A stretch of DNA of 29,325 nt from a virus. The DNA is taken from positions 1 through 29,325 of the IMG/VR virus record IMGVR_UViG_3300046817_000520. One strand, 5' to 3'. The notes beneath the pieces are model-generated. The model was given only the letters and a program-made list of their open reading frames with translations. It did not search any database and was not told the origin of the DNA. Both the position numbers and the translations under genes were made by a program. Below are positions 11,887 through 24,069 of this stretch, piece after piece (within the stretch, counting starts at the first letter, position 1; each line of letters begins with the position of its first letter).

Positions 11887-12098
11887 GCGTCGTCCTCCAG
11901 ATATGCGTGATCATATCGGCCTCGCACTGTCTGGCGCAAGGCTTCCCCGATCGAGGCGGATCGCATGACCTCCCCCGCCACCTGCTCGGGCACGTCCTTA
12001 TATACCGAAACCTTGCCGGTTTTCCACCGCACCGTCAGCGCACCGGATGCCGGATCGTGGTCGATCTCGTCAACGTGGCTGCTGAATACCTTGGGCAA
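11883..12098 (-). CDS. KTSC-domain protein (71 aa, TTG start)
   Basis: The product covers nearly all of a KTSC domain: SSHVDEIDHDPASGALTVRWKTGKVSVYKDVPEQV followed by the helix and ...RGRY. KTSC domains occur alone in phages or attached to lysyl-tRNA synthetase; their activity is not well defined. The start codon is TTG at 12098 with GGAGG 6 nt upstream, and it overlaps the epimerase end by 29 nt. The domain is clear; the role in this phage is unknown. Confidence 0.75.
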   Translation of the reverse strand: MPKVFSSHVDEIDHDPASGALTVRWKTGKVSVYKDVPEQVAGEVMRSASIGEALRQTVRGRYDHAYLEDDA

Positions 12099-12825
12099 TG
12101 AACGCCTCCATCCAAGCCATTATCTCCCAGCCGCTATACCAGAAACCACCATGATATTTTGAACGCACATCATAATGTGGCGCCTGTCGAATGGGACCGA
12201 TTTTGACACGCGGGAAAAACTGTCTCCGTATGTACTCCATCACTATCCTTTCCGAGCATAAGTGTGACAGCTGGATATTGCGCAGAATAACCCAATTTAT
12301 ATCAGCCGCCAGCCTCTCCACGGGATACCACTGATAGACCGCGTTGGGAGCGATCTTCTCCGTCTCATGCCCGGTCATCAAGTCGTAGAGCGCGTTCTTT
12401 TTGAGGCCGGGGCCAAACAGCGCAGGGAGGCGGACGATGGTTGCTCGATCGCCGAACCACTTGACGACCTGCCTCTCTAACTCCAATCGGTTAAGGCCAT
12501 ACGGGGGCAACCAATCGATCGTCGGGGTGCTGTCCTCATTGACCCCGCGCGGGACAACAAACACGTCCACCGTCGAGATCAGGACGAACCGCTTGACCTC
12601 GATTTGATGCACCGCATCCATCATCCGTATGATCCCCGATACGTCCTCATACGGATGCTCGTTCGCATACCACTTGGACCCCGGCGCTCCGGCGCAGATC
12701 ACCGTGTCAAATGATCGCCCCCGGATGTCCTCGATATTCTTTGAGTTGTAGAACTCGTTGAACGGGCGCTGGCAGGCGAGGTTGCTGCCGACGAAGCCGG
12801 TGTGACCGATTAGAGCGTCAGCCAT
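12070..12825 (-). CDS. NAD-dependent epimerase/dehydratase-like (extended SDR, 251 aa)
   Basis: The N-terminal nucleotide-binding motif GHTGFVG (7-13) lies in a Rossmann start (ALIGHTGFVGSNL). The conserved Ser-Thr strand LISTVDVF (83-89) and the active-site tyrosine Y109 (PYGLNRLELE) follow. The usual lysine at Y+4 is Arg113. A downstream LPALFGPGLKKNALYDLM matches the substrate domain of sugar epimerases. It is short (251 aa) for the family. It overlaps the FAD oxidoreductase gene by 8 nt. The likely substrate is a nucleotide sugar, but the Arg substitution makes activity uncertain. Confidence 0.8.
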   Translation of the reverse strand: MADALIGHTGFVGSNLACQRPFNEFYNSKNIEDIRGRSFDTVICAGAPGSKWYANEHPYEDVSGIIRMMDAVHQIEVKRFVLISTVDVFVVPRGVNEDSTPTIDWLPPYGLNRLELERQVVKWFGDRATIVRLPALFGPGLKKNALYDLMTGHETEKIAPNAVYQWYPVERLAADINWVILRNIQLSHLCSERIVMEYIRRQFFPRVKIGPIRQAPHYDVRSKYHGGFWYSGWEIMAWMEAFIAQGIQQPR

Positions 12826-13804
12826 TCAGCATCTCCATGACCCGCCGCTCCGCCGCAAAGATCGCGTCGAGCTTGCCCGCTCTCACTCTAAGCGCCCGCT
12901 CACCCACCTGAAGGATGCTGACCAGCCTTGCCGCAGCAGCCGAACGCGGCATAGCCCGTATCGCCAACCGATATTCCGCGACCCGATACTCGTCCCTGAT
13001 CCGTGGATAATAGCTCGCCATCTGCTCGATCATGGCCTTGCCCTGCGCCTCGACGGCATAGGGATGAACGCTGTGGATAAACGCTCTGGCGTCTTGCCAT
13101 GTGCAGGTCTTTGCCATCGGCGTCCAGCGGGCAGAGGTGAGAGAGGATAGCCCCTGGTCCTCGTCCCACGGGTAGAGGGAGGGGAACGGGCCGTCCATGA
13201 TCGTAACGGCCTTGTCGGTTGGCCCCTCCAATAACAAGGTCAGGCACGCCTCGTAGCGGTCCACGTCCTCGTTGTCGAGGGCACAGAACGTGCAGTCGAT
13301 CGTCATGTCCCATCGAGGATCATCGGCCGGGCCGGGAACCACATTGAGATGAACCCTGTCGCCAAGCTCCGATGTGAAGAAATCCCTGGCCGCGTCGAGC
13401 AGCACGTGGCGCTCGCTGGTCAGGACCGCCCCCTCGGCGTGACATAGATCCAGCCGACGAGGATCAGCCGTGTCGAACGGAACCTCGCTTTGCAGGATTT
13501 GCGTGTAGGTACCGAAGTCCAGAAGGCTGTCGTAGGCCGCTATCGCATAGACGTTCTCAAACACGCCTCGGGTGAGAAACCCGTACCGCTCCTCGAACTC
13601 CCTGGCATGTGCCTGACAGGCTGTGCGGGTTAGTTTAGAACGAGGGTAATGAAATCCCAGGTGAAGCCGGGCGGGCATATTACCGGATGCCCCGGCGAAC
13701 ACCCGATCGGCAATGTCGTGAACCTCGACCTCGTGGCCCTCGGATATGAGACGAAGGGCGATATGGCAGCCGTAAAATCCGGCCCCTAGAATGCGGATGT
13801 TCAC
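12818..13804 (-). CDS. FAD-dependent oxidoreductase (328 aa, GTG start)
   Basis: An N-terminal FAD-binding GxGxxG (ILGAGFYG, 5-12) and the ASGN motif near 40 are followed by ARLHLGFHYPRSKLT, a signature I associate with DAO-like flavoproteins found in surface polysaccharide loci and some phages. The GTG start (13804) has GGGGGAG just upstream and makes a GTGA overlap with the DUF4422 gene. The genes are coupled, suggesting that they act on the same glycan. The substrate is not evident. Length is within the normal range, without internal stops. Confidence 0.75.
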   Translation of the reverse strand: MNIRILGAGFYGCHIALRLISEGHEVEVHDIADRVFAGASGNMPARLHLGFHYPRSKLTRTACQAHAREFEERYGFLTRGVFENVYAIAAYDSLLDFGTYTQILQSEVPFDTADPRRLDLCHAEGAVLTSERHVLLDAARDFFTSELGDRVHLNVVPGPADDPRWDMTIDCTFCALDNEDVDRYEACLTLLLEGPTDKAVTIMDGPFPSLYPWDEDQGLSSLTSARWTPMAKTCTWQDARAFIHSVHPYAVEAQGKAMIEQMASYYPRIRDEYRVAEYRLAIRAMPRSAAAARLVSILQVGERALRVRAGKLDAIFAAERRVMEMLNG

Positions 13805-14598
13805 ATCTCCCCCTCAACCCGGTCCAACTCGAAGCGCCCCTCTAGAACCGGCAATGTCTGGATGCGTGTGGTTGGCCGCTCTATTCGGAGCTTTATCAAC
13901 CACATCGACATGAACCACTCCGTCATAAACCCGAGCTTCCTGCTTTGATACGAGTCAGTCTCCGGGCCGACCAGATCGGCAACCTCCGACATGACCTCCC
14001 ACCAATCTGTCATATAATAATTAAACAACTCGGGCGTAAAGATATACAGCGTGTGCGTCGTCAGCCAATTAAACCGCCCATCATTGTAGCCATGCTTGCG
14101 CAAGACGCTCGCGAATATCTCCCAATCCTGTCCAATGTGATTTTGTCCGTACAGTTGATAAAGCGGAGCGTTGAAATACAAGTGGCGATTGACGACCAAA
14201 TCCGCACCCCGCAACCACTCGTTCAACGGCGACAGATCGGTGTGATCGATCATGTGTATGTATTCCAGATAATCCTTCCGCGTCGTCTCGATCGTTGCCT
14301 TGTAAACATCCTCGCTGAAATACCTGTTGGTATCAAAGAACCTGTGTGTCCTGGGTATCAGTTGAGGGAACCAGAAACAACGTCGGTATTGGTTTATCGC
14401 TACAAACTCGTCGTCGGCAAACCGCATGTTGCGCCACAGCCAGTAATGCCCGCGCGCCTCCGAGAACTGAGAACGGTTAGAGATGTTGTCGCCTATCGTA
14501 TCGTCCTTGCCGAGTACGAAGGGGACGATGAGGCCATCGCCCACCTCATAGCTGAACGGGAGATGAGATATTGCGAATGTGCGGCGAAGTTCAACCAA
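13801..14598 (-). CDS. DUF4422-type glycosyltransferase (start uncertain, TTG proposed; 265 aa)
   Basis: The frame shows DUF4422 features: FAISHLPFSYEVGDGLIVPF, then GDNISNRSQFSEARGHYWLWRN, then VAINQYRRCFWFP, and later ...YNAPLYQLYGQNH-like residues. These are glycan transferases of bacterial surface loci. The longer frame from 14784 has a Cys/Arg/Gly-rich start that looks like a shadow, and no ATG opens the domain, so I place the start at TTG 14598, overlapping the 74-aa gene (8 nt) with GAGAGGA upstream. TTG 14616 is another option. The C-terminus ends in a GTGA coupling. Confidence 0.7.
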   Translation of the reverse strand: MVELRRTFAISHLPFSYEVGDGLIVPFVLGKDDTIGDNISNRSQFSEARGHYWLWRNMRFADDEFVAINQYRRCFWFPQLIPRTHRFFDTNRYFSEDVYKATIETTRKDYLEYIHMIDHTDLSPLNEWLRGADLVVNRHLYFNAPLYQLYGQNHIGQDWEIFASVLRKHGYNDGRFNWLTTHTLYIFTPELFNYYMTDWWEVMSEVADLVGPETDSYQSRKLGFMTEWFMSMWLIKLRIERPTTRIQTLPVLEGRFELDRVEGEM

Positions 14599-14815
14599 AG
14601 CGGCGCGTCCTCTCAAATCGGCAAACCCCCACCGTTGTAATGGTTTTCTGCCGTCCCCACCGCACGAACAAATTGAGGATGGGCAACCGCGTATAAATCT
14701 CCGCCCACACATCAAAAAACCACCGCCGCGCGCCGTGCTTGCCGGTGAACCGGAAAATAATTTGGTGCGCCAGTCCTGCCGCACGCATTGAGCCTGTCGT
14801 CATCTTGAATGTCAT
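14591..14815 (-). CDS. Unknown small basic protein in glycan cluster (74 aa)
   Basis: ATG 14815 makes an ATGA overlap with the GT4 gene stop. The 74-residue product (MTFKMTTGSMRAAGLAHQII...) is basic, with a hydrophobic AEIYTRLPILNLFVRW stretch, and ends eight bases into the DUF4422 start. The overlaps support it over the competing frame of the longer DUF4422 reading. Function unknown. Confidence 0.5.
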   Translation of the reverse strand: MTFKMTTGSMRAAGLAHQIIFRFTGKHGARRWFFDVWAEIYTRLPILNLFVRWGRQKTITTVGVCRFERTRRFG

Positions 14816-15903
14816 CCGGCGATCTCCGCCATCTGTTTGCAGTGGCGCTCCCAAGTCCAATACGATCCCTGTTGCGTTGCGGCCCACGCTACGCCGCAGT
14901 AAGCGTCTTCAATAGCATCAACACATCTCTCGACCGCATCCTCGGGCGAATGGATTTGCACGCACTCCCCGGTGCCAAACAAATCGTCCATGCCATACGC
15001 AAGACTGATTGCTGTCGGCACCCCGCAGGCCATGCATTCCATCGCGACGAAGTTGGTGCCGCCCTCGCACCGATTTGGAAACAGCGCCACATCGCAGGAA
15101 CCATAAACCTCGGCCATCTGCCAGTTTGGACGGGGTGAGACGATCTCGTATTGCTCCCGCCTCAGTCCTGCCTTCTGTAGCCACGCGCCAAAGTTGGGCT
15201 TGCCGATATGCGTCCCCGGTGGAGCGCCCCACGGGCACTTGCCCTCGAAGTCTGAGGACAGTTGGCCGAACGGCGACCCCCAAGCCGCGACGAGCACGGC
15301 GTCGTCGTGCGCCTCGGCAAAGCGCTTGAACGCCTCGATTACGAGGTCTTGACCTTTGCGGTACTCGGCCTTGCCGCCGGAGAAGACGCGGAACCCATTG
15401 CGTTGTCGTTTGACGCCGGGGTGAAAGATAACGGGGTCAATGCCCTCATGGCAAAGCAGCGCCTCGACGCCCAGAGAACCGAGTAAATCCCGGTTCCAAG
15501 CGGACGCACAAACCACGACATCATATTCCTTCAGCCTCTCGACATTGCGCCTGACGCTCTCCTCGTCCTCGAACACCGGGCAAGCTATGGTAGGGGTGCC
15601 TCGGATAAACCGGCCCCCGATGCCCCTGTCCGTCAGGTCGTTGCCGAGCGGGATAAACACCGGGGCATCCGGGAGCTTGACGATGCCGATCGGGGAGGCA
15701 GATATGATCTGCCGCTGGACCTCACGGCTCTGGCGGATGCGCTCAGCAAGAAGGGATTGCCTCGGATCATCGGGCGGAAGAACCGCGTCAAGCTCGGGCA
15801 TGGCCGAGACAGCAGTGCCGGGCCACGCAAGGGCATACCCGAGGCCCCGGACGCCCCAGCCGTAGGTACTCGCGATCGGCCAGCAGAATACAGCGTCTCT
15901 CAT
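14812..15903 (-). CDS. GT4-like glycosyltransferase (363 aa)
   Basis: This is a GT-B type glycosyltransferase. The donor-binding half has RKGQDLVIEAFKRF (182-195) and FPNRCEGGTNFVAMECMACG (275-294). The paired glutamates of GT4 enzymes are E280 and E289, separated by eight residues instead of the usual seven. It transfers sugars from nucleotide donors, probably onto a surface or virion glycan. It lies two bases after a 32-aa membrane peptide and is coupled by ATGA to the 74-aa gene. Confidence 0.8.
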   Translation of the reverse strand: MRDAVFCWPIASTYGWGVRGLGYALAWPGTAVSAMPELDAVLPPDDPRQSLLAERIRQSREVQRQIISASPIGIVKLPDAPVFIPLGNDLTDRGIGGRFIRGTPTIACPVFEDEESVRRNVERLKEYDVVVCASAWNRDLLGSLGVEALLCHEGIDPVIFHPGVKRQRNGFRVFSGGKAEYRKGQDLVIEAFKRFAEAHDDAVLVAAWGSPFGQLSSDFEGKCPWGAPPGTHIGKPNFGAWLQKAGLRREQYEIVSPRPNWQMAEVYGSCDVALFPNRCEGGTNFVAMECMACGVPTAISLAYGMDDLFGTGECVQIHSPEDAVERCVDAIEDAYCGVAWAATQQGSYWTWERHCKQMAEIAG

Positions 15904-15905
15904 GC

Positions 15906-16004
15906 TTACTTCACCATACTTGGAATATATATGACGTACAAATACACATACAAAGAAGCAAAAAGACCCACCACTGTTGCAATAGCTACAAATTCTTTTA
16001 ACAT
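15906..16004 (-). CDS. Tiny single-pass membrane protein (32 aa)
   Basis: The 32-residue product is mostly hydrophobic (EFVAIATVVGLFASLYVYLY, residues 4-23, then VIYIPS). The start ATG 16004 lies after the stop of the zinc-ribbon gene, with GAGGAG upstream. The DNA is more AT-rich than its neighbours. It could anchor the glycosyltransferases, act as a holin-like peptide, or be coincidental; nothing decides this. Confidence 0.5.
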   Translation of the reverse strand: MLKEFVAIATVVGLFASLYVYLYVIYIPSMVK

Positions 16005-16006
16005 AC

Positions 16007-16093
16007 TCAATGCTTCTCCTCCTCGCACCGGATGCACTTGCCGGCGACGACGATTGCCCCGCAGATGGGGCAGTGCCCTATATTTTGACCCAC
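16007..16093 (-). CDS. Mini zinc ribbon (28 aa, GTG start)
   Basis: GTG 16093 opens VGQNIGHCPICGAIVVAG then KCIRCEEEKH. Cys8, Cys11, Cys20 and Cys23 make two CxxC knuckles, a minimal zinc ribbon. GAGGGG precedes the GTG by about 8 nt, and the frame overlaps the end of the 96-aa gene by 16 nt. The compact Cys pattern favours a genuine gene; function unknown. Confidence 0.55.
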   Translation of the reverse strand: MGQNIGHCPICGAIVVAGKCIRCEEEKH

Positions 16094-16368
16094 AGCCCGT
16101 TCCCCTCCACGGCAAAGCGATCGAACTCCGCCCGGTTCTTCTCCCAAACAACCATCTGGTCCTCGGTCAACCCCTCCCCCCCATAATGCTCGCCCTTGAT
16201 CATCGGGGTATGCCCACCGAACGGAACCATGTCGGTCGCCCGCGAGACGATGCGGATGTCGTCTTTCCTCTCGGTCACGTAGCGGAGCCTTGCGATGCCG
16301 GTCCACCCTCGGGACAGGGCCTCGTCGATCCCCTGCTGCTCGGTCGGGGCTATCAGGTACGCGATCAT
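16078..16368 (-). CDS. Unknown 96-aa protein in glycan cluster
   Basis: The start at ATG 16368 overlaps the TPR/GT gene stop as ATGA. The 96-residue protein begins MIAYLIAPTEQQGIDEAL, continues with IARLRYVTERKDDIRIVSRA, and ends in an acidic region plus GNGLWVKI. I recognise no family; predicted mixed alpha/beta. Confidence 0.6.
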   Translation of the reverse strand: MIAYLIAPTEQQGIDEALSRGWTGIARLRYVTERKDDIRIVSRATDMVPFGGHTPMIKGEHYGGEGLTEDQMVVWEKNRAEFDRFAVEGNGLWVKI

Positions 16369-17642
16369 CCCACCATCCTCCGCAAATCCCCATCGACCCT
16401 CGCCATCACGTCGGCCCAATCCTCGTCGAGCGAGCGCCTATATATAACGTGTGTCGAATACCAGCCCGTATTGCCCTCATAGCCCCAGCGAAAGTCCCGG
16501 CCCCGCTGGTTTACCAGCAGCCAACACGGAACCCCCATCGCCCCGGCTAAATGCCCAACAGCGGTATCGACGCAGATCACCAGGTCCAGCCCCGCAATGA
16601 TTTTGGCCGTATCGAGCATGTTTGTGATCTCAGGCGACCGATCGAGGATCAGTCCATGCGCAGCCATGTCGGCCATCTGCGAATCCCCCACCTGGAGGCT
16701 GTGGACCTCGATGCCCGGTATCTCGGTGAGCCTCAGCCAATAGGCCAAAGGGCAATCCCGATTGTGGCTCTGCTCGTGCGTCTGACTGCCGGACCATGCG
16801 ATGCCGACACGACAACGGCTCGGCCTATCGTGCCGCTGCTCAAAGAGCGGGCCGAGATACTGCCCCTCATCCCCCGGCCCGCCCAATCCCAAAGCCACCG
16901 GCAGGCTCATCAACGGCGACCACGCCTCGACATCACCAGGAAGAACCCTCGGCAACGGGTAAGCCGTCACGTTGCCCGGCAGCCCTGCCGCATCTGCCGA
17001 CAGCGCGTAAACCTCGCGCTGTATATATAACGTCACCCGATCGGCAAACTTGGCCGCTTGGGCAACCCACCTGAGCGCCATGATCGTATCGCCCAGGCCC
17101 TGCTCGGCCTCCAGATAAAGATGCCCAACCCGCTCCCCCCGCCAAAGGGGCCACGGCCGACTCAAAAACTCCGGCAGCTTGTACGCAAACCGATGCTCGT
17201 ATTCCGCCCAACCCTCCGCCCATTCCCCCGCACTCATCAGCGCAAACGACAGCGCCACATGGTTGATCGCCTCACCTGGACCGCACTCGACCCCACGGCG
17301 GCCAGCCCGGATCGCACTGTCCGGCCAGCCCAGCGCCCCGTAAACCTGCGATAGCAGAGCATGGGGCGTGCCCTCATCTCCCTTTACGGAGATCGCCGCC
17401 CTTAACCGGGCCATCGCCTCCACGCTCCGCCCCACCTGATGCAACGCCCAACCCAAATTCGTCAAAGCCCGGTAATTCCCCCCATCCCCCCCAACCGCTC
17501 GGGCAAAACACCCCGCCGCACTCCCCCAATACTTCCTGTCCGCCAGCAAACAACCCAGCCGATACCAGTCCTCCGCATCCCCACCAGATAAAACCAAACT
17601 CGCTAAATGCTGATATTCCCGGCTGTCCTGACGCTCATCCAT
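16365..17642 (-). CDS. TPR plus GT9-like glycosyltransferase fusion (425 aa)
   Basis: Residues about 24-150 form helical TPR repeats (YRLGCLLADRKYWGSAAGCF, ALTNLGWALHQVGRSVEAMA, and more). The C-terminal part resembles GT9/heptosyltransferase-like proteins: EQGLGDTIMALRWV, RVGIAWSGSQTH, and VICVDTAVGHLAGAMGVPCW. This fusion is common in alphaproteobacterial glycan loci, and the reaction is likely sugar transfer. It heads the glycan genes, overlapping the 66-aa zinc-knuckle gene by 8 nt and the next gene by ATGA. Donor and acceptor are unknown. Confidence 0.75.
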   Translation of the reverse strand: MDERQDSREYQHLASLVLSGGDAEDWYRLGCLLADRKYWGSAAGCFARAVGGDGGNYRALTNLGWALHQVGRSVEAMARLRAAISVKGDEGTPHALLSQVYGALGWPDSAIRAGRRGVECGPGEAINHVALSFALMSAGEWAEGWAEYEHRFAYKLPEFLSRPWPLWRGERVGHLYLEAEQGLGDTIMALRWVAQAAKFADRVTLYIQREVYALSADAAGLPGNVTAYPLPRVLPGDVEAWSPLMSLPVALGLGGPGDEGQYLGPLFEQRHDRPSRCRVGIAWSGSQTHEQSHNRDCPLAYWLRLTEIPGIEVHSLQVGDSQMADMAAHGLILDRSPEITNMLDTAKIIAGLDLVICVDTAVGHLAGAMGVPCWLLVNQRGRDFRWGYEGNTGWYSTHVIYRRSLDEDWADVMARVDGDLRRMVG

Positions 17643-17835: not shown

Positions 17836-18097
17836 CCGCCCTGGCCCTCCGCATCGCCGCCGCCCCATAAGCCCGGCGCCGGTCGCAGTACTCGCACTCC
17901 CCAGGCGGCGCTATCAACCGCTTGGCCCCCGTCGCCGGAATCGAACCGGCTGTTCGGCCGAGATCGCCACCCGATTGAGGAGCGCTAGCATCCTCCTGTC
18001 GCCTCGGGCGCGGCGGCTTTGCACCAGCACGGGGTAAACCCTTGCACAGACCCAACGGGTGACGCTCGCCACATATCCTGCACTTCTGAGCCAACAT
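17828..18097 (-). CDS. Zinc-knuckle protein A (89 aa), first gene of the long leftward operon
   Basis: ATG 18097 begins MLAQKCRICGERHPLGLCKG, with Cys6, Cys9 and Cys18. A basic, Pro/Ser-rich middle follows, then ECEYCDRRR (Cys68, Cys71) and a basic end. Three GTGATAACACA repeats lie within 50 nt upstream, so it is the natural first gene of a transcript running down to the capsid genes. It is a paralogue of protein B. The middle contains a tRNA T-arm-like string in the DNA, discussed under the rejected items. Confidence 0.6.
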   Translation of the reverse strand: MLAQKCRICGERHPLGLCKGLPRAGAKPPRPRRQEDASAPQSGGDLGRTAGSIPATGAKRLIAPPGECEYCDRRRAYGAAAMRRARADG

Positions 18098-18102
18098 GCC
18101 CC

Positions 18103-18145
18103 GTGATAACACAACGCCCGTGATAACACAACGCGTGATAACACA
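18103..18145. repeat. Three GTGATAACACA iterons ahead of the late/glycan operon
   Basis: Identical 11-mers occur at 18103-18113, 18120-18130 and 18135-18145 (spacing 17 and 15). Read leftward they are TGTGTTATCAC. TTGTGT of one copy and TATCAC of the next copy lie 17 nt apart, so the array itself resembles -35/-10 boxes. An operator or activator site for the leftward transcript is the likeliest role; an origin iteron is an alternative. Confidence 0.6.
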
Positions 18146-18396
18146 GGCAATCCGTTTTGATCCTGGGGGGCGCGAGGATGGGGGTAACGCAATCGATCAG
18201 CAGCCGCGTCCAATGGGGGTCACGGGCCACCCCGACCGACCGCCCCGAGGCCGCCCCGATCGGCTCGACCAGGCCGGCTCACCCCGTCAAACACCCTCCC
18301 GAGTGGGGAATGAATGGGGGAACGATCACCAAAAGCAACAGCAACACCGTTGATACTACTCACATATCTGGCGTTGTTATGCGGAGAGCATATCCG
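18146..18396. other. 251-nt stretch with no supported gene
   Basis: The frames here look like shadows, including a leftward frame starting 18230 whose translation contains repeated CYH from the iterons. A GC-rich stretch at 18230-18300 has no clear terminator with a T-run. It may be the long leader of the operon starting at 18097. Confidence 0.4.
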
Positions 18397-18714
18397 TCAT
18401 ATCGTCCTGACTGGAACCAGCAACCCCTCGCTGTTGCGAACCAACGTCCAGCTCTGTTTGGCGAGGAGCCGTTGGATACGCTCGAGCTCGAGGTCCGTCA
18501 TCTCTTGCGGAGGGATGGGTGGCTCTGTGGGGCAGCCGTCATAGCCCTTGGCGCCTGGCCTCTGGTAACGGCTGATGTGCCACCGGCCGCTGACGCTGAA
18601 CAGGAGCGCTAAACGGCGGTATTGCTCGCCTAGAGGCGGTGGCTTAGTGGGAGCAGACGAGGCTAACCCGCTCCCTAAATTACGCGCGCGTATGGCGCGA
18701 TACGCTCGCTGCAT
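18397..18714 (-). CDS. Unknown 105-aa protein
   Basis: Read from ATG 18714 (GTG 18720 possible), the product is basic at the N-terminus, Pro-rich centrally, and ends in a clear helix MTDLELERIQRLLAKQSWTL followed by VRNSEGLLVPV. A TTGACA-N18-CTAAAT box lies about 130 nt upstream on the same strand. The C-terminal 60 residues look protein-like; the first 40 are less convincing, and a shorter gene is possible. Confidence 0.45.
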   Translation of the reverse strand: MQRAYRAIRARNLGSGLASSAPTKPPPLGEQYRRLALLFSVSGRWHISRYQRPGAKGYDGCPTEPPIPPQEMTDLELERIQRLLAKQSWTLVRNSEGLLVPVRTI

Positions 18715-18840
18715 GGCCACTCGTTTTACGCTGTCATGGGACTACGAGATTGCATGGGCACGCTGCACGCAACAGCGTGATAGGATGAGGCTAGCACGGG
18801 GTTTTGTGCTGTTGGGCTGGGAATGGCGGCTTTGTTGACG

Positions 18841-18870
18841 ATTTAGGGGGTTGACAGGATTTGGTGTCAA
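18841..18870 (-). promoter_or_regulatory. Leftward sigma70-like promoter
   Basis: On the minus strand TTGACA (18870-18865) and CTAAAT (18846-18841) are separated by 18 nt. It would drive the 105-aa gene and possibly everything beyond. A GATTC (GANTC) lies at 18875-18879, just upstream of the -35. By-eye prediction. Confidence 0.4.
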
Positions 18871-18884
18871 CGTTGATTCAACGT
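18850..18884. promoter_or_regulatory. Two overlapping inverted repeats (operator-like)
   Basis: GTTGACA (18850-18856) pairs with TGTCAAC (18865-18871), and ACGTTGA-T-TCAACGT (18870-18884) is a perfect palindrome around a GATTC. They share a border and flank or overlap the leftward promoter and the end of the 68-aa gene. Either could be a repressor operator; the first could also be a weak RNA hairpin. Confidence 0.45.
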
Positions 18885-19084
18885 GTTGGTTGCCACCATT
18901 TTGCAGTCAGGCCGACGCCTTTTAGCTCATAGGCGATGTCTCGGGCCTCGTCGCTATTTGGGTCTGCGAAGGGTCTCGACCATGCGCCGGGTTGCCTACC
19001 GTGCGGGAGGAAGCCGGCAAGCAGGAACTCGTGATTGAGGGCGAGGGGAGCGTCGAAAACGACGAGGCGCGGCAAGTTGCTCAT
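18878..19084 (-). CDS. Unknown 68-aa protein
   Basis: ATG 19084 starts MSNLPRLVVFDAPLALNHEF and the product ends in DEARDIAYELKGVGLTAKWW. It has a beta strand start, a Gly/Pro-rich middle and a C-terminal helix. The stop lies in the palindromic element. No family recognised; small leftward control-region gene. Confidence 0.5.
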   Translation of the reverse strand: MSNLPRLVVFDAPLALNHEFLLAGFLPHGRQPGAWSRPFADPNSDEARDIAYELKGVGLTAKWWQPTR

Positions 19085-19356: not shown

Positions 19357-19414
19357 CAGCCGGGCCGGATAGCCGCCTTTCCTAGCAGGGACAAGCCATT
19401 CGATAGCCGGATCA

Positions 19415-19591
19415 TCATCGCCCCTCTTGGTTGGCGAGCAGCTCGGCGATCCGCTCTGTCTGCCGACCGACCTGCGAATAGCCGTTAAGCTGGTGATCGA
19501 GCGCCGGCACCGACAGCGCCAACAACTCAGCAGCCCTCACCCGCGTCAGCCGACGCGCATCGATCCACGCTCGCAAATCGTCCTTTGTCAT
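19415..19591 (-). CDS. Cro/C1-like HTH protein (58 aa)
   Basis: The 58-residue product MTKDDLRAWIDARRLTRVRA... has a helix-turn-helix: RRLTRVRAAELLALSVPALD, then HQLNGYSQVGRQTERIAEL. This is the Cro/C1-type repressor arrangement. It opens the leftward control genes, opposite the rightward small-gene array, with shared GCTATCAGAT repeats between them. It is the best candidate for the regulator of that switch, though the ribosome site is weak. Confidence 0.65.
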   Translation of the reverse strand: MTKDDLRAWIDARRLTRVRAAELLALSVPALDHQLNGYSQVGRQTERIAELLANQEGR

Positions 19592-19718
19592 AAGCGCACC
19601 GTATCATGGCTGGCTATCAGATAGATATGCGTTGACCGCATGTCTGACCGTCACATTGATAGGTTGCCATGCTATCAGATTGAGGATTACTCTCTCGTCA
19701 TCGACAACGGAGGCCAAC
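19592..19718. promoter_or_regulatory. Divergent control region with GCTATCAGAT repeats
   Basis: The 127 nt between the leftward HTH gene and the rightward gene at 19719 hold GCTATCAGAT at 19613-19622 and 19671-19680, with an inverted TGATAG half-site at 19657-19662. These are likely operators for a small repressor. TTGACC (19632) and TTGCCA (19664) are possible -35 boxes, but I see no convincing -10. Confidence 0.5.
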
Positions 19719-19910
19719 ATGGCGAAGATCAAGCTCACACGGGATCAGAAAGCGGCGCTGAAGGAGTATGAGTTCCGGCTGCGCGAGGAAGACCGCTATC
19801 TCGGCAGCGTCTTCGTGACCCCGATGGGGCAGCGCAATATCGAGGCGAAGACCAAGATCGCCTTCGACCGATGCCGCTCGCTCGGGATGACCCACGAGCA
19901 CGGCCTTTAA
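19719..19910 (+). CDS. Unknown 63-aa protein, first of the rightward array
   Basis: I start it at ATG 19719 (MAKIKLTRDQKAALKEYEFR...) because AACGGAGG precedes it, rather than the longer frame from 19632. The product is charged and helical (LREEDRYLGSVFVTP, later EAKTKIAFDRCRSLGM). No family recognised. It carries the first copy of the array leader. Confidence 0.65.
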   Translation: MAKIKLTRDQKAALKEYEFRLREEDRYLGSVFVTPMGQRNIEAKTKIAFDRCRSLGMTHEHGL

Positions 19911-19938
19911 TCGTCATCGACAACGGGAGCACACAGTC

Positions 19939-20232
19939 ATGGCAAACACGATCGACACCGTAGGCAAGGCAGAGCGGGCCGCGATGCTCACTCAGAGCTT
20001 CGACAGCGCCATCAACGATCCGGCCAAGGCAGGCAAGCTCGCCGGCCGCAAGCTGACATTCGGCCTCTATCGCCGGTATGCCGTTTACCCTGTCCACACT
20101 CGCTTTGATCGCGTCTGCTGGATGGTCGCAGACGCCGACATCGACGACAACGGTATGCCCGGCATCATCCGGCAGGAAGATACGCCGCAAGCCGCCCTCG
20201 CCGGGTTTGTGTTTCCGCCATTCGCAGAATAG
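19939..20232 (+). CDS. Unknown 97-aa protein
   Basis: ATG 19939 follows ACAACGGGAG. The N-terminal half is helical (AERAAMLTQSFDSAINDPAK). The C-terminal half is beta-rich with FGLYRRYAVYPVHTRFDRVC, MVADADIDDNGMPG and a final FVFPPFAE. Function unknown. A GC hairpin follows before the next gene. Confidence 0.65.
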   Translation: MANTIDTVGKAERAAMLTQSFDSAINDPAKAGKLAGRKLTFGLYRRYAVYPVHTRFDRVCWMVADADIDDNGMPGIIRQEDTPQAALAGFVFPPFAE

Positions 20233-20253
20233 CACAAACCGCCACCCCCGACA

Positions 20254-20280
20254 GCCCGCATGGATCATCCCAGCGGGCTT
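20254..20280 (+). repeat. AGCCCGC-N13-GCGGGCT hairpin, copy 1
   Basis: A 7-bp perfect stem with a 13-nt loop lies between genes, followed by TTAAGGGGTC and then the start-associated box 14 nt later. It lacks a T-run, so a simple terminator is doubtful. The same module recurs at 21471-21497. Confidence 0.6.
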
Positions 20281-20317
20281 AAGGGGTCGAGAGCATCGAC
20301 AACGGGAGCGCCGGACA

Positions 20318-20569
20318 ATGACCTTCTGGAATGTAAAGCCCAACCCAACCACCCCCGACACGATCGAGCCGACAACCCTCGCCGTCGAAAGCGAGGAGCG
20401 CCGATGGGCGACCGGGCGCGGCTATTGCGTCGAAGCCAGGACGGCGGAAGACGCCCGCAAGATCGTGCGCGATTACAACTTCACCATGCGCGGCTATGAC
20501 CTGGCCGAAGATCGCGCCGTCATCCTCGCATCGCGGCAAAAGGTGATCGTTCTGAGCCGCGCAGCCTAA
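20318..20569 (+). CDS. Unknown 83-aa protein
   Basis: ATG 20318 lies 9 nt after the ACAACGGGAG box; longer frames to the left run through other genes. The product starts MTFWNVKPNPTTPDTIEPTT and continues RTAEDARKIVRDYNFTMRGY and AVILASRQKVIVLSRAA. It is mixed alpha/beta. No family recognised. Confidence 0.6.
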   Translation: MTFWNVKPNPTTPDTIEPTTLAVESEERRWATGRGYCVEARTAEDARKIVRDYNFTMRGYDLAEDRAVILASRQKVIVLSRAA

Positions 20570-20590
20570 CCGACAACGGGAGCACGATAG

Positions 20591-20833
20591 ATGACCAAAT
20601 GGCATATTCGCGACGACCTCAACCATGGGCGGGCCGCTTGCTCTCCGCTCAGTTCACGTGATCTCGTCATCTCTATTGAGGACTGGATCGGCCGCATCCC
20701 CAGCGATCAGTGCGCCAAATGCGCCAAGGCGGCAAAACACAGGATCGCCACCGCAACCGCAGACAAACGCCGCCAGCAAGCCTTCGACGATGCCAACGCA
20801 CGCCACCCGCTGCCCATCTCCGGCGCAGCCTAA
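20591..20833 (+). CDS. Unknown 80-aa protein with Cys pair
   Basis: ATG 20591 follows the box at 20573. The product (MTKWHIRDDLNHGRAACSPL...) contains SDQCAKCAKAAKHRIATATA, one CxxC, with a third Cys at 17. It may bind a metal, but the pattern is incomplete. Basic helical C-terminal part. Confidence 0.6.
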   Translation: MTKWHIRDDLNHGRAACSPLSSRDLVISIEDWIGRIPSDQCAKCAKAAKHRIATATADKRRQQAFDDANARHPLPISGAA

Positions 20834-20860
20834 CCACACCACACAACGGGAGCCAAAACC

Positions 20861-21004
20861 ATGCGTCAGGAATTTATCGAGTGCACCAGCCGCTCAACCG
20901 CCGCCCGGCGCGCCCCTTGGGCCGCCGTCATTGCCAAGGTCGAGGGTGGTTACATCGCCTTTGAGAGCAGCCACGACTACCGCGTTTGGCGTGCACAGCG
21001 CTGA
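20861..21004 (+). CDS. Unknown 47-aa protein
   Basis: ATG 20861 follows CACAACGGGAGCC. The short product (MRQEFIECTSRSTAARRAPW..., then VIAKVEGGYIAFESSHDYRV) has a beta hairpin look. Its stop begins the 22-base leader repeat of the next gene. The length is small, but the shared leader and clean spacing support it. Confidence 0.6.
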   Translation: MRQEFIECTSRSTAARRAPWAAVIAKVEGGYIAFESSHDYRVWRAQR

Positions 21005-21029
21005 TCCTACCACACAACGGGAGCCTCAA

Positions 21030-21227
21030 ATGATCGAAATGGAATACATGCTGGCCGACAGCGCCGACGAGTGCGAGCGCGCGGCCCGGTTTATCCGCAA
21101 TCAGACACCCGAAACGCTGCGGGCTTGGGCCGCTCGGATCGAAAGCGGGTTTGCGCCGAACGGCGTTTGCCTGCCCGCGATGGGACTGGAGCGCGCCGCC
21201 GCCAATCTGCGAACCTACCGCCCCTGA
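21030..21227 (+). CDS. Unknown 65-aa helical protein
   Basis: ATG 21030 follows the box at 21014. The product (MIEMEYMLADSADECERAAR...) is mostly helical with acidic patches and ends ERAAANLRTYRP. No recognised family. Confidence 0.65.
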   Translation: MIEMEYMLADSADECERAARFIRNQTPETLRAWAARIESGFAPNGVCLPAMGLERAAANLRTYRP

Positions 21228-21255
21228 TCCTACCACACAACGGGAGTACCTGACT

Positions 21256-21450
21256 ATGACCTACACCGAGGACAAAGACGCCATCATCGCCGAAGCCGAG
21301 CGCCTGCACGGAGGCGATGACGTTATGATTGACGGTGCGCCGCAACCCGAAGTCACCTACGGCGCGGATGGCGCATGGGTGCAAGCTTGGGTCCGTGTCC
21401 CTTGGGACCGCAACGCGCGGGCCGAGAAGCTGCTCGCCGGCGCCGCCTAG
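21256..21450 (+). CDS. Unknown 64-aa protein
   Basis: ATG 21256 follows the second copy of the identical 22-base leader. The product (MTYTEDKDAIIAEAERLHGG...) has a helix, then a beta part with GADGAWVQAWVRVPW, and ends in a short Lys/Arg helix. No family recognised. Confidence 0.65.
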   Translation: MTYTEDKDAIIAEAERLHGGDDVMIDGAPQPEVTYGADGAWVQAWVRVPWDRNARAEKLLAGAA

Positions 21451-21470
21451 CCTCACCCGCTCACCCTACC

Positions 21471-21497
21471 AGCCCGCTCGGGAAGCCGCAGCGGGCT
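21471..21497 (+). repeat. AGCCCGC-N13-GCGGGCT hairpin, copy 2
   Basis: The 7-bp stem and 13-nt loop length match copy 1 at 20254, while the loop sequence differs. TTAGGGAGTC follows, and the variant box CAACAGGAG begins 15 nt later. Keeping stem, loop length and flank in two places suggests a conserved element. Confidence 0.6.
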
Positions 21498-21526
21498 TAG
21501 GGAGTCAGGAGCAACAGGAGATCGAG

Positions 21527-21856
21527 ATGACCACCTTTCGCGCCCGTGTGTTCGAGAACAAGGACGGCAACCGTTATCTCGTCAAGGGCTTCTGGTACAG
21601 CGATGATGCCCCAGAGGCCGGCATGGGATCAATGCTCACCTGCATGACCGAGAGCATGTTGTTTAGCGTCGTGATCGGCGCCAAGCCCACCGGATGGCTC
21701 GACGTTGAGGCCGACGAGGCGGGGCATGGCACAATCGAGCATTTCCCCTATCGGCTGACCGGCCGGCAGTTTGCCAATGGCTCCGTTGACGTGATGCTGA
21801 TCGGCGGCCCGCTGTTCGATCAGGAGATGGCCGCTCACGCAGGAGCTACCCCATGA
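21527..21856 (+). CDS. Unknown 109-aa protein
   Basis: ATG 21527 follows the variant CAACAGGAG box. The product (MTTFRARVFENKDGNRYLVK...) is beta-rich with YSDDAPEAGMGSMLTCMTES and VDVMLIGGPLFDQEMAA. Its stop overlaps the next start as ATGA. It is the largest member of the array apart from the last gene; function unknown. Confidence 0.65.
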   Translation: MTTFRARVFENKDGNRYLVKGFWYSDDAPEAGMGSMLTCMTESMLFSVVIGAKPTGWLDVEADEAGHGTIEHFPYRLTGRQFANGSVDVMLIGGPLFDQEMAAHAGATP

Positions 21857-22074
21857 CCACAATCCGCGTCACCTTCGCAGACGGCCACACCCTCGATGTT
21901 TGCACGAGCAACACCCCCGCCGAGCTGCGCCGCATGCTGGCGCAAACGTCCTTCGGATCGTGGCCGTACCTGTGCAATCAACACGGGTGGGGTAATCTCC
22001 ACGTCGAGGCCGTCCGCATCGACTACCTCGACCCGATCTCCCTCTCACCGTGCATCAACGGGAGGATCGCCTAA
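21853..22074 (+). CDS. Unknown 73-aa protein ending NGRIA
   Basis: The ATGA overlap gives the start. The product (MTTIRVTFADGHTLDVCTSN...) is beta then helix, with a SFGSWPYLCNQHGWGNLHVE stretch. Its last codons are AAC GGG AGG ATC GCC, which spell both the tail NGRIA and the ribosome box for the next gene. The stop overlaps the next ATG by one base (TAATG). Confidence 0.65.
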   Translation: MTTIRVTFADGHTLDVCTSNTPAELRRMLAQTSFGSWPYLCNQHGWGNLHVEAVRIDYLDPISLSPCINGRIA

Positions 22075-22277
22075 TGCTGATCGAACTCAAAAAGGACGGC
22101 CCGCGATACATCGTATATGGCCGAGAAGGCGGCAGCGGCACGGAGCGCCTCGGCTTCATCGCCAAGGACGGCAAATGGTGGAACGCCGTTGACACCACAA
22201 TGGAACACAGCCGCGACTTTGCTACCCGCGAGCGCGCCATCGCTTGGCTACAAACCCTCAACGGGAGGATCGCATGA
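22074..22277 (+). CDS. Unknown 67-aa protein ending NGRIA
   Basis: The product starts MLIELKKDGPRYIVYGREGG and ends ERAIAWLQTLNGRIA. Like the gene before, the codons for NGRIA are the TCAACGGGAGGATCGC box used by the following start (ATGA). The middle, IAKDGKWWNAVDTTMEHSRD, is beta-rich. Function unknown. Confidence 0.65.
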   Translation: MLIELKKDGPRYIVYGREGGSGTERLGFIAKDGKWWNAVDTTMEHSRDFATRERAIAWLQTLNGRIA

Positions 22278-22330
22278 GCACCGTTGAGGATCGAGGCGAT
22301 AGCATCGAGACACCATCGACGAGAATATAA
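22274..22330 (+). CDS. Possible 18-aa peptide
   Basis: The frame MSTVEDRGDSIETPSTRI opens by ATGA overlap behind a strong GGGAGG and ends at TAA 22330. It is short and could be a leftover of the box cassette. Included because the ribosome site has no other user before 22345. Confidence 0.3.
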   Translation: MSTVEDRGDSIETPSTRI

Positions 22331-22344
22331 TACCGGAGGACGAA

Positions 22345-22557
22345 ATGCCATTCAACATCGAAACGGACGTTACGCTTGAATGCCCATCCTGCCGGCAATA
22401 CAAAACCATACCGCGCAGCATCGTCGCAAATCTTCCCGCCGAGGTCCGCCTGATCGAAAGCATTTGCCCCGATTGCGATGATGGCGACCGCCACGCGGCG
22501 ACGTGGTTTAGCGCGCCGGGCATCAAGGTCTCCCAAGATCGTGAGCGCGAACCATGA
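22345..22557 (+). CDS. Small zinc-ribbon protein (70 aa)
   Basis: ATG 22345 has GGAGG about 6 nt upstream. Cys13, Cys16, Cys41 and Cys44 (CPSC and CPDC) form a zinc ribbon with a 24-residue insert. Likely nucleic-acid or protein binding; function unknown. Confidence 0.65.
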   Translation: MPFNIETDVTLECPSCRQYKTIPRSIVANLPAEVRLIESICPDCDDGDRHAATWFSAPGIKVSQDREREP

Positions 22558-22718
22558 CCCGCACCTACACCCCCGACGACATGCCTGTCCTTACTGAGGC
22601 TGACAAAATAGAAATCTGGCTGGCCTGCCAGGCACTCGATCAAACAGACCCGCGTGTCAGAGAGAGCCAGCGCAGCCTGCTCTACAGGCTAAAAAAGGAA
22701 GGGAAAATAAGGCCATGA
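22554..22718 (+). CDS. Unknown 54-aa protein
   Basis: The gene begins and ends in ATGA overlaps. The product (MTRTYTPDDMPVLTEADKIE...) is helical: IWLACQALDQTDPRV, then SLLYRLKKEGKIRP. It is too short for confident family assignment, but the double coupling supports it. Confidence 0.6.
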   Translation: MTRTYTPDDMPVLTEADKIEIWLACQALDQTDPRVRESQRSLLYRLKKEGKIRP

Positions 22719-22942
22719 AAACGTACACTGAGGCCGACCTCGCCCTGTTCGCCAAATACGAGGCTGCTAGGGCAGACCTCCGACCAGCCGCGTGCAACCC
22801 CGAAGGGCCGTGCTGGGTCCGCGAGGGACCGCCTGCGATGGACAAAACCAAGGGCGGCCCCAACACCGTTTGCAGGGGTTGCGGATCGGCCGTTGGCATG
22901 CCGACGATACCTAACACCAGAACCCAAAGGTACGCCCGATGA
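22715..22942 (+). CDS. Cys-containing 75-aa protein
   Basis: ATGA-coupled on both sides. It has Cys27, Cys33, Cys53 and Cys56 (CNPEGPC and CRGC), a possible zinc site, after a helix (MKTYTEADLALFAKYEAARA). Function unknown. Confidence 0.6.
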   Translation: MKTYTEADLALFAKYEAARADLRPAACNPEGPCWVREGPPAMDKTKGGPNTVCRGCGSAVGMPTIPNTRTQRYAR

Positions 22943-23031
22943 CCGAGCGCATCATCGCCGCACTCGGCGGCTTCCTCCTCGGCCCCGCTATCGCCCTCGC
23001 CGTCGTCGCCGCGTGCAGCGTCAGGTGGTAG
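22939..23031 (+). CDS. Tiny membrane protein (30 aa)
   Basis: ATGA coupling at the start. The product (MTERIIAALGGFLLGPAIAL...) is a single hydrophobic helix ending in VVAACSVRW. The Ala-Cys-Ser near the end is not a normal lipobox, since it sits at the C-terminus. A membrane peptide of unknown use, perhaps holin-like. Confidence 0.5.
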   Translation: MTERIIAALGGFLLGPAIALAVVAACSVRW

Positions 23032-23053
23032 CGTCCCAAATTCGCCCTAGAAC

Positions 23054-23105
23054 GCGTCATCTTATAGATCGTTGACGTAGGATACCTATTGCCGTAAGAT
23101 GACGC
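23054..23105 (+). promoter_or_regulatory. Promoter bracketed by a perfect 11-bp inverted repeat
   Basis: TTGACG (23072-23077), 17 nt, TAAGAT (23095-23100) is a good sigma70-type promoter. GCGTCATCTTA (23054-23064) and TAAGATGACGC (23095-23105) are exact inverted copies 30 nt apart; the right arm covers the -10. This is a repressor-operator arrangement, with DNA looping possible. It should drive the genes at 23133 and 23317. Confidence 0.65.
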
Positions 23106-23132
23106 TCTCTCGGAGACGACACGAGCAATCTG

Positions 23133-23676: not shown

Positions 23677-24069
23677 TCACGCCGCCGCATCCTCCCGCCT
23701 GACCCGCTGGTAGGCCACCAGGCGATGCTCGGCACAATACGACACCCCCATCCGATCAATCCGCTCGCCGCAGAAGTGGAATCCCGCCTCCTTCGGATGC
23801 CCCTCGGGCCATACGCACCGGCCCGGCTCAGGGAACGGGCAGACCGTCGATTGCTTCGTCTCACGCTGCATCATCTCGACCTCCGCCCATCTTACCCGTT
23901 GCCACACATTCGACGGCTCCGCACCAGGCAACACCGTGATACCCTCGCGCCTAGCCTTGCCGATCGCCGCGTTCTTGCCGCAACCCAACTCCACACCCGC
24001 TGCCTGGTACGTCGCGCCGCCCTCGATCAACTCCCGTAATCGGGCGATGCGCTCCGGGGTCCAGATCAT
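23677..24069 (-). CDS. GcrA-family regulator (130 aa)
   Basis: The N-terminus WTPERIARLRELIEGGATYQ then GCGKNAAIGKARREGI matches the GcrA DNA-binding domain, and the C-terminus CVWPEGHP...FHFCGERID...YCAEHRLVAYQ matches its Cys-containing RNA polymerase-contacting domain (Cys85, Cys100, Cys112). GcrA in Alphaproteobacteria binds sigma70 holoenzyme and activates promoters at CcrM-methylated GANTC sites. Here it ends the replication operon, after an ATGA overlap, and converges with the rightward array across six bases without a visible terminator. Confidence 0.85.
   Translation of the reverse strand: MIWTPERIARLRELIEGGATYQAAGVELGCGKNAAIGKARREGITVLPGAEPSNVWQRVRWAEVEMMQRETKQSTVCPFPEPGRCVWPEGHPKEAGFHFCGERIDRMGVSYCAEHRLVAYQRVRREDAAA

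Follow-up and report, generated by a model that had tools for sequence, protein, structure and literature searches.

How do phages accumulate and exchange tiny genes that have no assigned function? The question is raised by a plus-strand array of small ORFan genes (positions 19704 to 22273) in a viral contig of 29,325 bases, IMG/VR record IMGVR_UViG_3300046817_000520, the whole of which is the window analysed here. Nearly all of these genes have almost the same short box just before the start codon. A first-pass annotation, made from the letters alone, had noticed the boxes and proposed either recombination joints, by which genes are added or swapped, or sites for an RNA or protein that regulates the whole set. 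We lean, by a modest degree, towards ribosome-binding joints that resemble the start-associated sequences (SAS) of other phages and are homogenised locally in each phage by short-homology recombination, with small genes gained and lost through them.

A box before the starts of unrelated small genes

The core box ACAACGGGAG occurs in six exact copies, all on the plus strand, within a 1.3-kb stretch, and each ahead of a start codon; a trinucleotide model predicts 0.024 copies for the window. Four close variants (ACAACGGAGG, GCAACAGGAG and TCAACGGGAG twice) bring the total to ten sites (Table 1), and the distance to the ATG is 6-9 nt at 10/10 of them. When two mismatches are allowed the window has 30 matches against 26 expected, no overall excess, so the signal consists of near-exact copies and their clustering. 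The boxes noticed at first pass are therefore real. Its count of ten boxed start codons holds as far as position goes, but nine of the ten are convincing gene starts, because the site at 22258, within the end of gene J, precedes an open reading frame (ORF) of only 18 codons. One gene inside the array, gene I (21853), has no box.

The spacing from GGAG to ATG is that of a ribosome-binding site, but predicted pairing with the anti-Shine-Dalgarno (anti-SD) sequence at array starts equals, and does not exceed, that at other starts. The 5′ half of the box is therefore not explained by SD pairing. Conservation extends to ACAACG before GGAG, outside the bases that pair, and CAACG stands directly before GGAG at 8/11 array starts compared with 0/253 other GGAG sites of the window; gene A, among the 11, has the box with its register shifted by one base. 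The earlier judgement that SD selection alone would be insufficient is borne out by these figures.

The array proteins fall into no Pfam or PHROG family above cutoff and have no similarity to one another. Joined together, the ten gave 0 matches in 50,697 phage records, in which the array DNA was likewise unmatched, and no relatives of proteins B and H are encoded in the viral contigs searched. As the joints are alike and the encoded proteins unrelated, it appears that joints were copied while the genes beside them were not.

Adjacent joints share more than the core

Sharing across the whole array is limited to the core, about 8-10 nt. In the 5′ flank, conservation over the array as a whole exceeds expectation only weakly (p 0.10 for 8 nt and 0.004-0.06 for 12-20 nt, with gene A mis-anchored there). 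The outer bases that the first pass had picked out as conserved, CATCGAC and TACCAC, are common mainly to adjacent boxes and not to the array as a whole: CATCGAC is common to boxes A, B and C, and CCACAC to E, F and G. The ends of genes C and D have GCGCAGCCTAACC in common. Exact direct repeats of 13-23 nt lie on both sides of each gene from A to F, where the chance of sharing at least 13 nt between random 51-nt stretches is 0.0005. The pair described earlier as identical over 22 bases including a stop codon is CTGATCCTACCACACAACGGGAG, on either side of gene F; TGA is indeed in both copies, and the length is 23 nt. A 16-nt repeat, TCAACGGGAGGATCGC, flanks gene J.

This resemblance forms a gradient between neighbours. 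When each box is taken with its 30 nt upstream, the longest stretch shared by neighbouring joints averages 12.67, against 9.44 when permuted (p=0.0006; p=0.002 without gene G), and across all 17 consecutive plus-strand starts p<5e-5. These joints were anchored at the box; anchoring at GGAG, which puts gene A out of register, gives p=0.10. The gradient is absent from the minus-strand genes of the window (p=0.60), from the right-arm coding sequences of phage Anaya (p=0.59) and from the cluster K SAS sites of Anaya (p=0.27), which the same k-mer scan retrieved as a positive control (15/16 start-associated). Set against the other starts of this phage, a comparison that the first pass had proposed, the array flanks stand out by the neighbour gradient, found only here, and only weakly by array-wide conservation.

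Table 1. Boxes, genes, repeats and other features of the small-gene array and its leader, in window coordinates
Feature	Position	Strand	Basis
Box A, ACAACGGAGG, register shifted by one base, ahead of gene A	19704..19713	+	
Box B, ACAACGGGAG	19920..19929	+	
Box C, ACAACGGGAG	20299..20308	+	
Box D, ACAACGGGAG	20573..20582	+	
Box E, ACAACGGGAG	20843..20852	+	
Box F, ACAACGGGAG	21014..21023	+	
Box G, ACAACGGGAG	21237..21246	+	
Box H, GCAACAGGAG, weakest	21511..21520	+	
Box J, TCAACGGGAG, within 3′ end of gene I	22055..22064	+	
Box j, TCAACGGGAG, within 3′ end of gene J, ahead of 18-codon ORF	22258..22267	+	
Gene A, 63 aa ORFan	19719..19910	+	
Gene B, 97 aa ORFan	19939..20232	+	
Gene C, 83 aa ORFan	20318..20569	+	
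Gene D, 80 aa ORFan	20591..20833	+	
Gene E, 47 aa ORFan	20861..21004	+	
Gene F, 65 aa ORFan, perfect 23-nt direct repeats on either side	21030..21227	+	
Gene G, 64 aa ORFan	21256..21450	+	
Gene H, 109 aa ORFan	21527..21856	+	
Gene I, 73 aa ORFan, no box; C-terminal NGRIA common to gene J	21853..22074	+	
Gene J, 67 aa ORFan	22074..22277	+	
23-nt direct repeat CTGATCCTACCACACAACGGGAG, copy 1, flanks gene F, includes gene E stop TGA	21001..21023	+	
23-nt direct repeat CTGATCCTACCACACAACGGGAG, copy 2, includes gene F stop TGA	21224..21246	+	
16-nt repeat TCAACGGGAGGATCGC, copy 1, flanks gene J	22055..22070	+	
16-nt repeat TCAACGGGAGGATCGC, copy 2	22258..22273	+	
Hairpin AGCCCGC...GCGGGCT, joint before gene C	20253..20281	+	predicted fold
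Hairpin AGCCCGC...GCGGGCT, joint before gene H	21471..21499	+	predicted fold
Putative divergent control region, repeated CTATCA/TGATAG half sites, array leader; candidate operator/promoter	19592..19718	.	sequence
58 aa ORF divergent from array, helix-turn-helix-like by eye, no Pfam match	19415..19591	-	inference

Other phages, known systems and the source contig

Near-identical contigs of the window phage end before the array. The core, as CAACGGGAG, is not clustered in 45 records of its capsid kin, the syntenic small-gene stretch of the relative G001 is without it, and the box array is absent from the helicase relatives L105, L106 and L109. It recurs in G046 (= L149), an unrelated phage with no tblastx similarity to the window, where seven CAACGGGAG boxes all lie in the small-gene region. 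The neighbour gradient is present there too (p=0.0005), a 56-nt identical stretch occurs at two neighbouring joints before unrelated genes, and several boxes have hairpins ahead. L255, a relative of G046 with a 91% identical terminase (TerL), has its small-gene region at the same place, with no CAACGGGAG, a duplicated joint of its own, mostly different genes and no more than two short stretches that match the G046 array. That joint contains a hairpin; its two copies, identical over ~58 nt, precede consecutive genes (L255 16145-16660, in reverse complement coordinates).

A third phage, G047 (L252, 132 kb), has clustered CAACGGGAG boxes downstream of repeated promoter-like leaders. Around reverse-strand 12700-14740 several TAAGTnTGnnTTACGC leaders are followed by (A)CACAACGGGAG and then a start codon, which suggests repeated units of promoter plus box.

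One phage has a box of its own. G028 (L288) carries the private box AAGGGGAGA, start-associated in 10/10 copies and the sole strong one among the capsid-kin genomes scanned fully or nearly so. In its small-gene region (L288 12100-17430, reverse strand) the order is a long covarying hairpin, a second hairpin, AAGGGGAGA and ATG. In the hairpins 9/17 pairs have changed on both sides with pairing kept; with only six intragenomic copies, this shows that a hairpin or palindrome has been selected for, and says nothing of its function. The neighbour gradient is weaker than in the window (p=0.018 at 110 nt). No Rfam family matched in the window, L149, L255 or L288.

CACACAACGGGAG precedes an ATG in at least 119 viral stretches; its matches include two large homologous sets (a Cys/His-rich coding set, and a 156-aa gene after a terminator), neither of which is an array. 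That 156-aa gene is widespread (L151, L155, L158, L160 and others), with a T-tailed hairpin and then CCACACAACGGGAG ahead of it, a single conserved leader across a family of phages. In viral contigs CTACCACACAACGGGAG gave two matches only, both coding and due to chance, and ATCGACAACGGGAGN{3,9}ATG gave 19 single matches, about chance level. The AGGACGGCAC copies of L102 are a coding tandem repeat, and the GGCAGAGAG copies of G019 sit in a low-complexity repeat. L106 (IMGVR_UViG_3300009146_000014) has on its reverse strand, at 17844-19049, a dense non-coding array of GAGCGAGCC and GAGAGCACC/GAGAGAACC, with a period of 18-19 nt and unrelated 9-nt spacers, which resembles an array of sites.

The first pass had named the SAS of cluster K mycobacteriophages as the closest precedent, and in position and in conservation beyond pairing it is a good one. 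SAS are described from cluster K and from cluster EF Microbacterium phages (PMC3203893, PMC7302621). As in those phages, the window has many copies on one strand of the non-structural arm, a few nt before the starts of unrelated small genes, with the motif 3-9 nt upstream of starts and conservation beyond the SD. Its consensus, ACAACGGGAG, is not that of SAS (GGGATAGGAGCCC or GGGAAAGGACCCC). SAS is a fixed 13-mer found over tens of kb, whereas the window copies lie within 2.6 kb and have flanks common to neighbours. The SAS of Anaya are evenly alike, unlike the window boxes (p values above), and SAS are conserved across related phages, whereas CAACGGGAG arrays are absent from the capsid kin of the window phage. 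Since consensus, even similarity and conservation across kin all fail to match, we do not file the array as SAS. The promoter-like element ESAS was not found at the window array.

Corndog gene 14 (PMC4351075) and Island3 gene 68 (PMC3029335) also lie between short repeats, and recombination there accounts for their gain or loss. The window genes have the flanking repeats of such short-homology insertion joints: an unrelated small gene lies between perfect short repeats spanning stop and start signals, and the duplicated C-terminal codons of Island3 have their likeness at the ends of genes C/D and I/J. The Corndog and Island3 cases are single events seen against relatives, whereas the window has a chain of repeats with one core. 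A proposal on phage mosaicism, discussed in PMC3029335, invokes short conserved sequences at gene boundaries and is similar in that these short homologies act as recombination joints; the window joints differ in being a family repeated within one genome and in coinciding with the translation start region. PeSLs of T4-type phages are described in PMC4503421 as mobile regulatory cassettes of early promoter and stem-loop. By that account they too are repeated intergenic elements proposed to shuffle small genes, and the joint hairpins of G046 and G028 recall them. The window repeats differ in being the ribosome-binding region. No sigma-70-like promoter was found on the plus strand at 19400-23000, phage-specific promoters being outside that search, and 8/10 window joints are without a hairpin of the AGCCCGC...GCGGGCT kind; only C and H carry one.

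The left 17.6 kb of the window aligns with the reversed first ~21 kb of G001 (65,299 bases), so the contig is probably part of a genome near 65 kb. A minus-strand gene encodes a member of the major head protein family phrog_9953, which has >80 relatives among viral contigs, and an Acetobacteraceae metagenome-assembled genome contains one relative of this capsid. In the right part are a helicase, a primase/toprim protein and a phage-encoded GcrA-family protein (23677-24069, minus strand; PF07750, E=7e-18). GcrA is a cell-cycle regulator of alphaproteobacteria. Because of this gene and the capsid relative, an alphaproteobacterial host is likely, though not proven, and the GcrA-family protein hints at possible interference with host cell-cycle transcription. 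A sugar-related cluster (epimerase, DUF4422, glycosyltransferase-like, TPR plus heptosyltransferase-like) lies beside the structural module (12070-17642, minus strand). A 19-nt inverted repeat at 23046-23113, CGCGTCATCTTA / TAAGATGACGC, is a candidate operator: it surrounds a sigma-70-like promoter, downstream of which lies a zinc-ribbon-like ORF of 60 aa. No tRNA was found in the window.

Weighing the explanations

Our preferred reading is that the boxes may be translation-initiation joints that double as short recombination joints. ACAACGGGAG would supply GGAG at ribosome-binding distance from the start, together with a 5′ ACAACG unable to pair with the anti-SD. The simplest history would be local copying of joints, by recombination at short homologies, or by template switching, between neighbouring repeats, each joint (often including the stop or last codons of the preceding gene) thereby coming to resemble the adjacent one while the genes between joints are gained, lost or replaced. 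A newcomer gene between two boxes would be translated immediately within a polycistronic early transcript, and recombination between two neighbouring repeats would excise precisely one gene, the joint that stays behind being functional. We infer that recombination was the cause, that the 5′ half of the box is active in translation, and that the array forms a single early operon. What the first pass had proposed as recombination joints is thus upheld in part, by the gradient, by the repeats flanking unrelated genes, and by L255 as a sister example with changed genes and joints.

Several points weigh against the preferred reading. The gradient p values are post hoc and come from ten sites, resting on few pairs (A-B-C, E-F-G and J-j), and the pairs G-H and H-J interrupt the neighbour chain. 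The gradient of G028 reaches only p=0.053 at 45 nt. Most capsid-kin genomes are without a private box, so boxes are not required for small-gene regions. The search turned up no genome with just one array gene more or fewer than this one, so exchange was not directly seen. Perfect repeats could, besides, point to a deletion still to come instead of an insertion in the past.

It is unlikely, if still worth weighing, that the box is a regulon site, bound in the mRNA by a phage or host protein or a small RNA, by which translation of all the genes in the set would be switched together, a role first suggested for SAS. The 5′ ACAACG, conserved despite no pairing with 16S rRNA, would suit such a site, as would the same core before starts in the unrelated G046 and G047 and the comparable fixed motifs of cluster K and EF phages (PMC3203893, PMC7302621). 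But among fixed sites neighbours should be no more alike than other copies, as is the case in Anaya; gene I is unboxed; no near-perfect complement (0-1 mismatch) of the box lies on the other strand of the window; and kin phages have different boxes or none. As sharing across the array extends to so few nt besides, the earlier idea of one regulator for the whole set is not supported, and a trans-acting factor leaves the gradient, the private boxes and the unboxed gene unexplained. A CsrA-type site is not favoured, as the AnGGA core of such sites is missing from the box.

We also doubt that the boxes are a plain translation signal, in which an unstructured, A/C-rich leader and GGAG were selected time and again for strong early translation, their similarity having no recombinational cause. 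Starts in the array lie in regions less folded than those of other starts (p=0.016), which suits such a signal as well as the preferred reading. In 190 alphaproteobacterial genomes ACAACGGGAGN{4,9}ATG is found 73 times, 2.7-fold more often than its reversed control (27), and is therefore a mildly favoured start context there; the frequency of CACACAACGGGAG before ATG in viral stretches points the same way. With a maximum of three copies in any one of these genomes, no host signal is this dense. Anti-SD pairing is not above that of other starts, and selection acting separately at each start would neither duplicate stop codons and 23-nt flanks from neighbour to neighbour nor yield a gradient absent at other starts.

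Old tandem duplications of a gene plus its leader, after which the proteins diverged beyond recognition and the leaders were kept, seem to us highly improbable. Duplication does occur in such arrays, since one G046 array pair is clearly paralogous (73% identity), and genes I and J both have the C-terminal NGRIA. In the window array, though, no protein pair is similar, even where near-neutral, stop-containing flanks are identical over 13-23 nt, and leaders that young imply recognisable proteins.

We give hardly any credence to a promoter or terminator cassette at each joint, as in T4-type PeSLs, with the box merely its downstream end: hairpins do precede boxes C and H, several G046 boxes and most G028 boxes (with compensatory changes), but the window joints mostly lack them and no sigma-70-like promoter lies in the plus-strand stretch searched.

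A wider form of the preferred reading is more tentative, and we would not yet call it probable. Diverse phages may build their small-gene arrays on genome-private joint cassettes (hairpin plus start box) that undergo concerted evolution within a genome; the joints would be homogenised from neighbour to neighbour while ORFans turn over, and genes would be recruited and swapped with the ribosome-binding joint itself as the unit.

Likeness of neighbouring joints where the proteins are unlike is a measurable signature, applicable to any phage genome, by which regulatory motifs can be told from recombination joints. To our knowledge, SAS motifs have had no explanation since 2011. If the preferred reading is true, the joints delineate gene modules and would predict which small genes come and go together.

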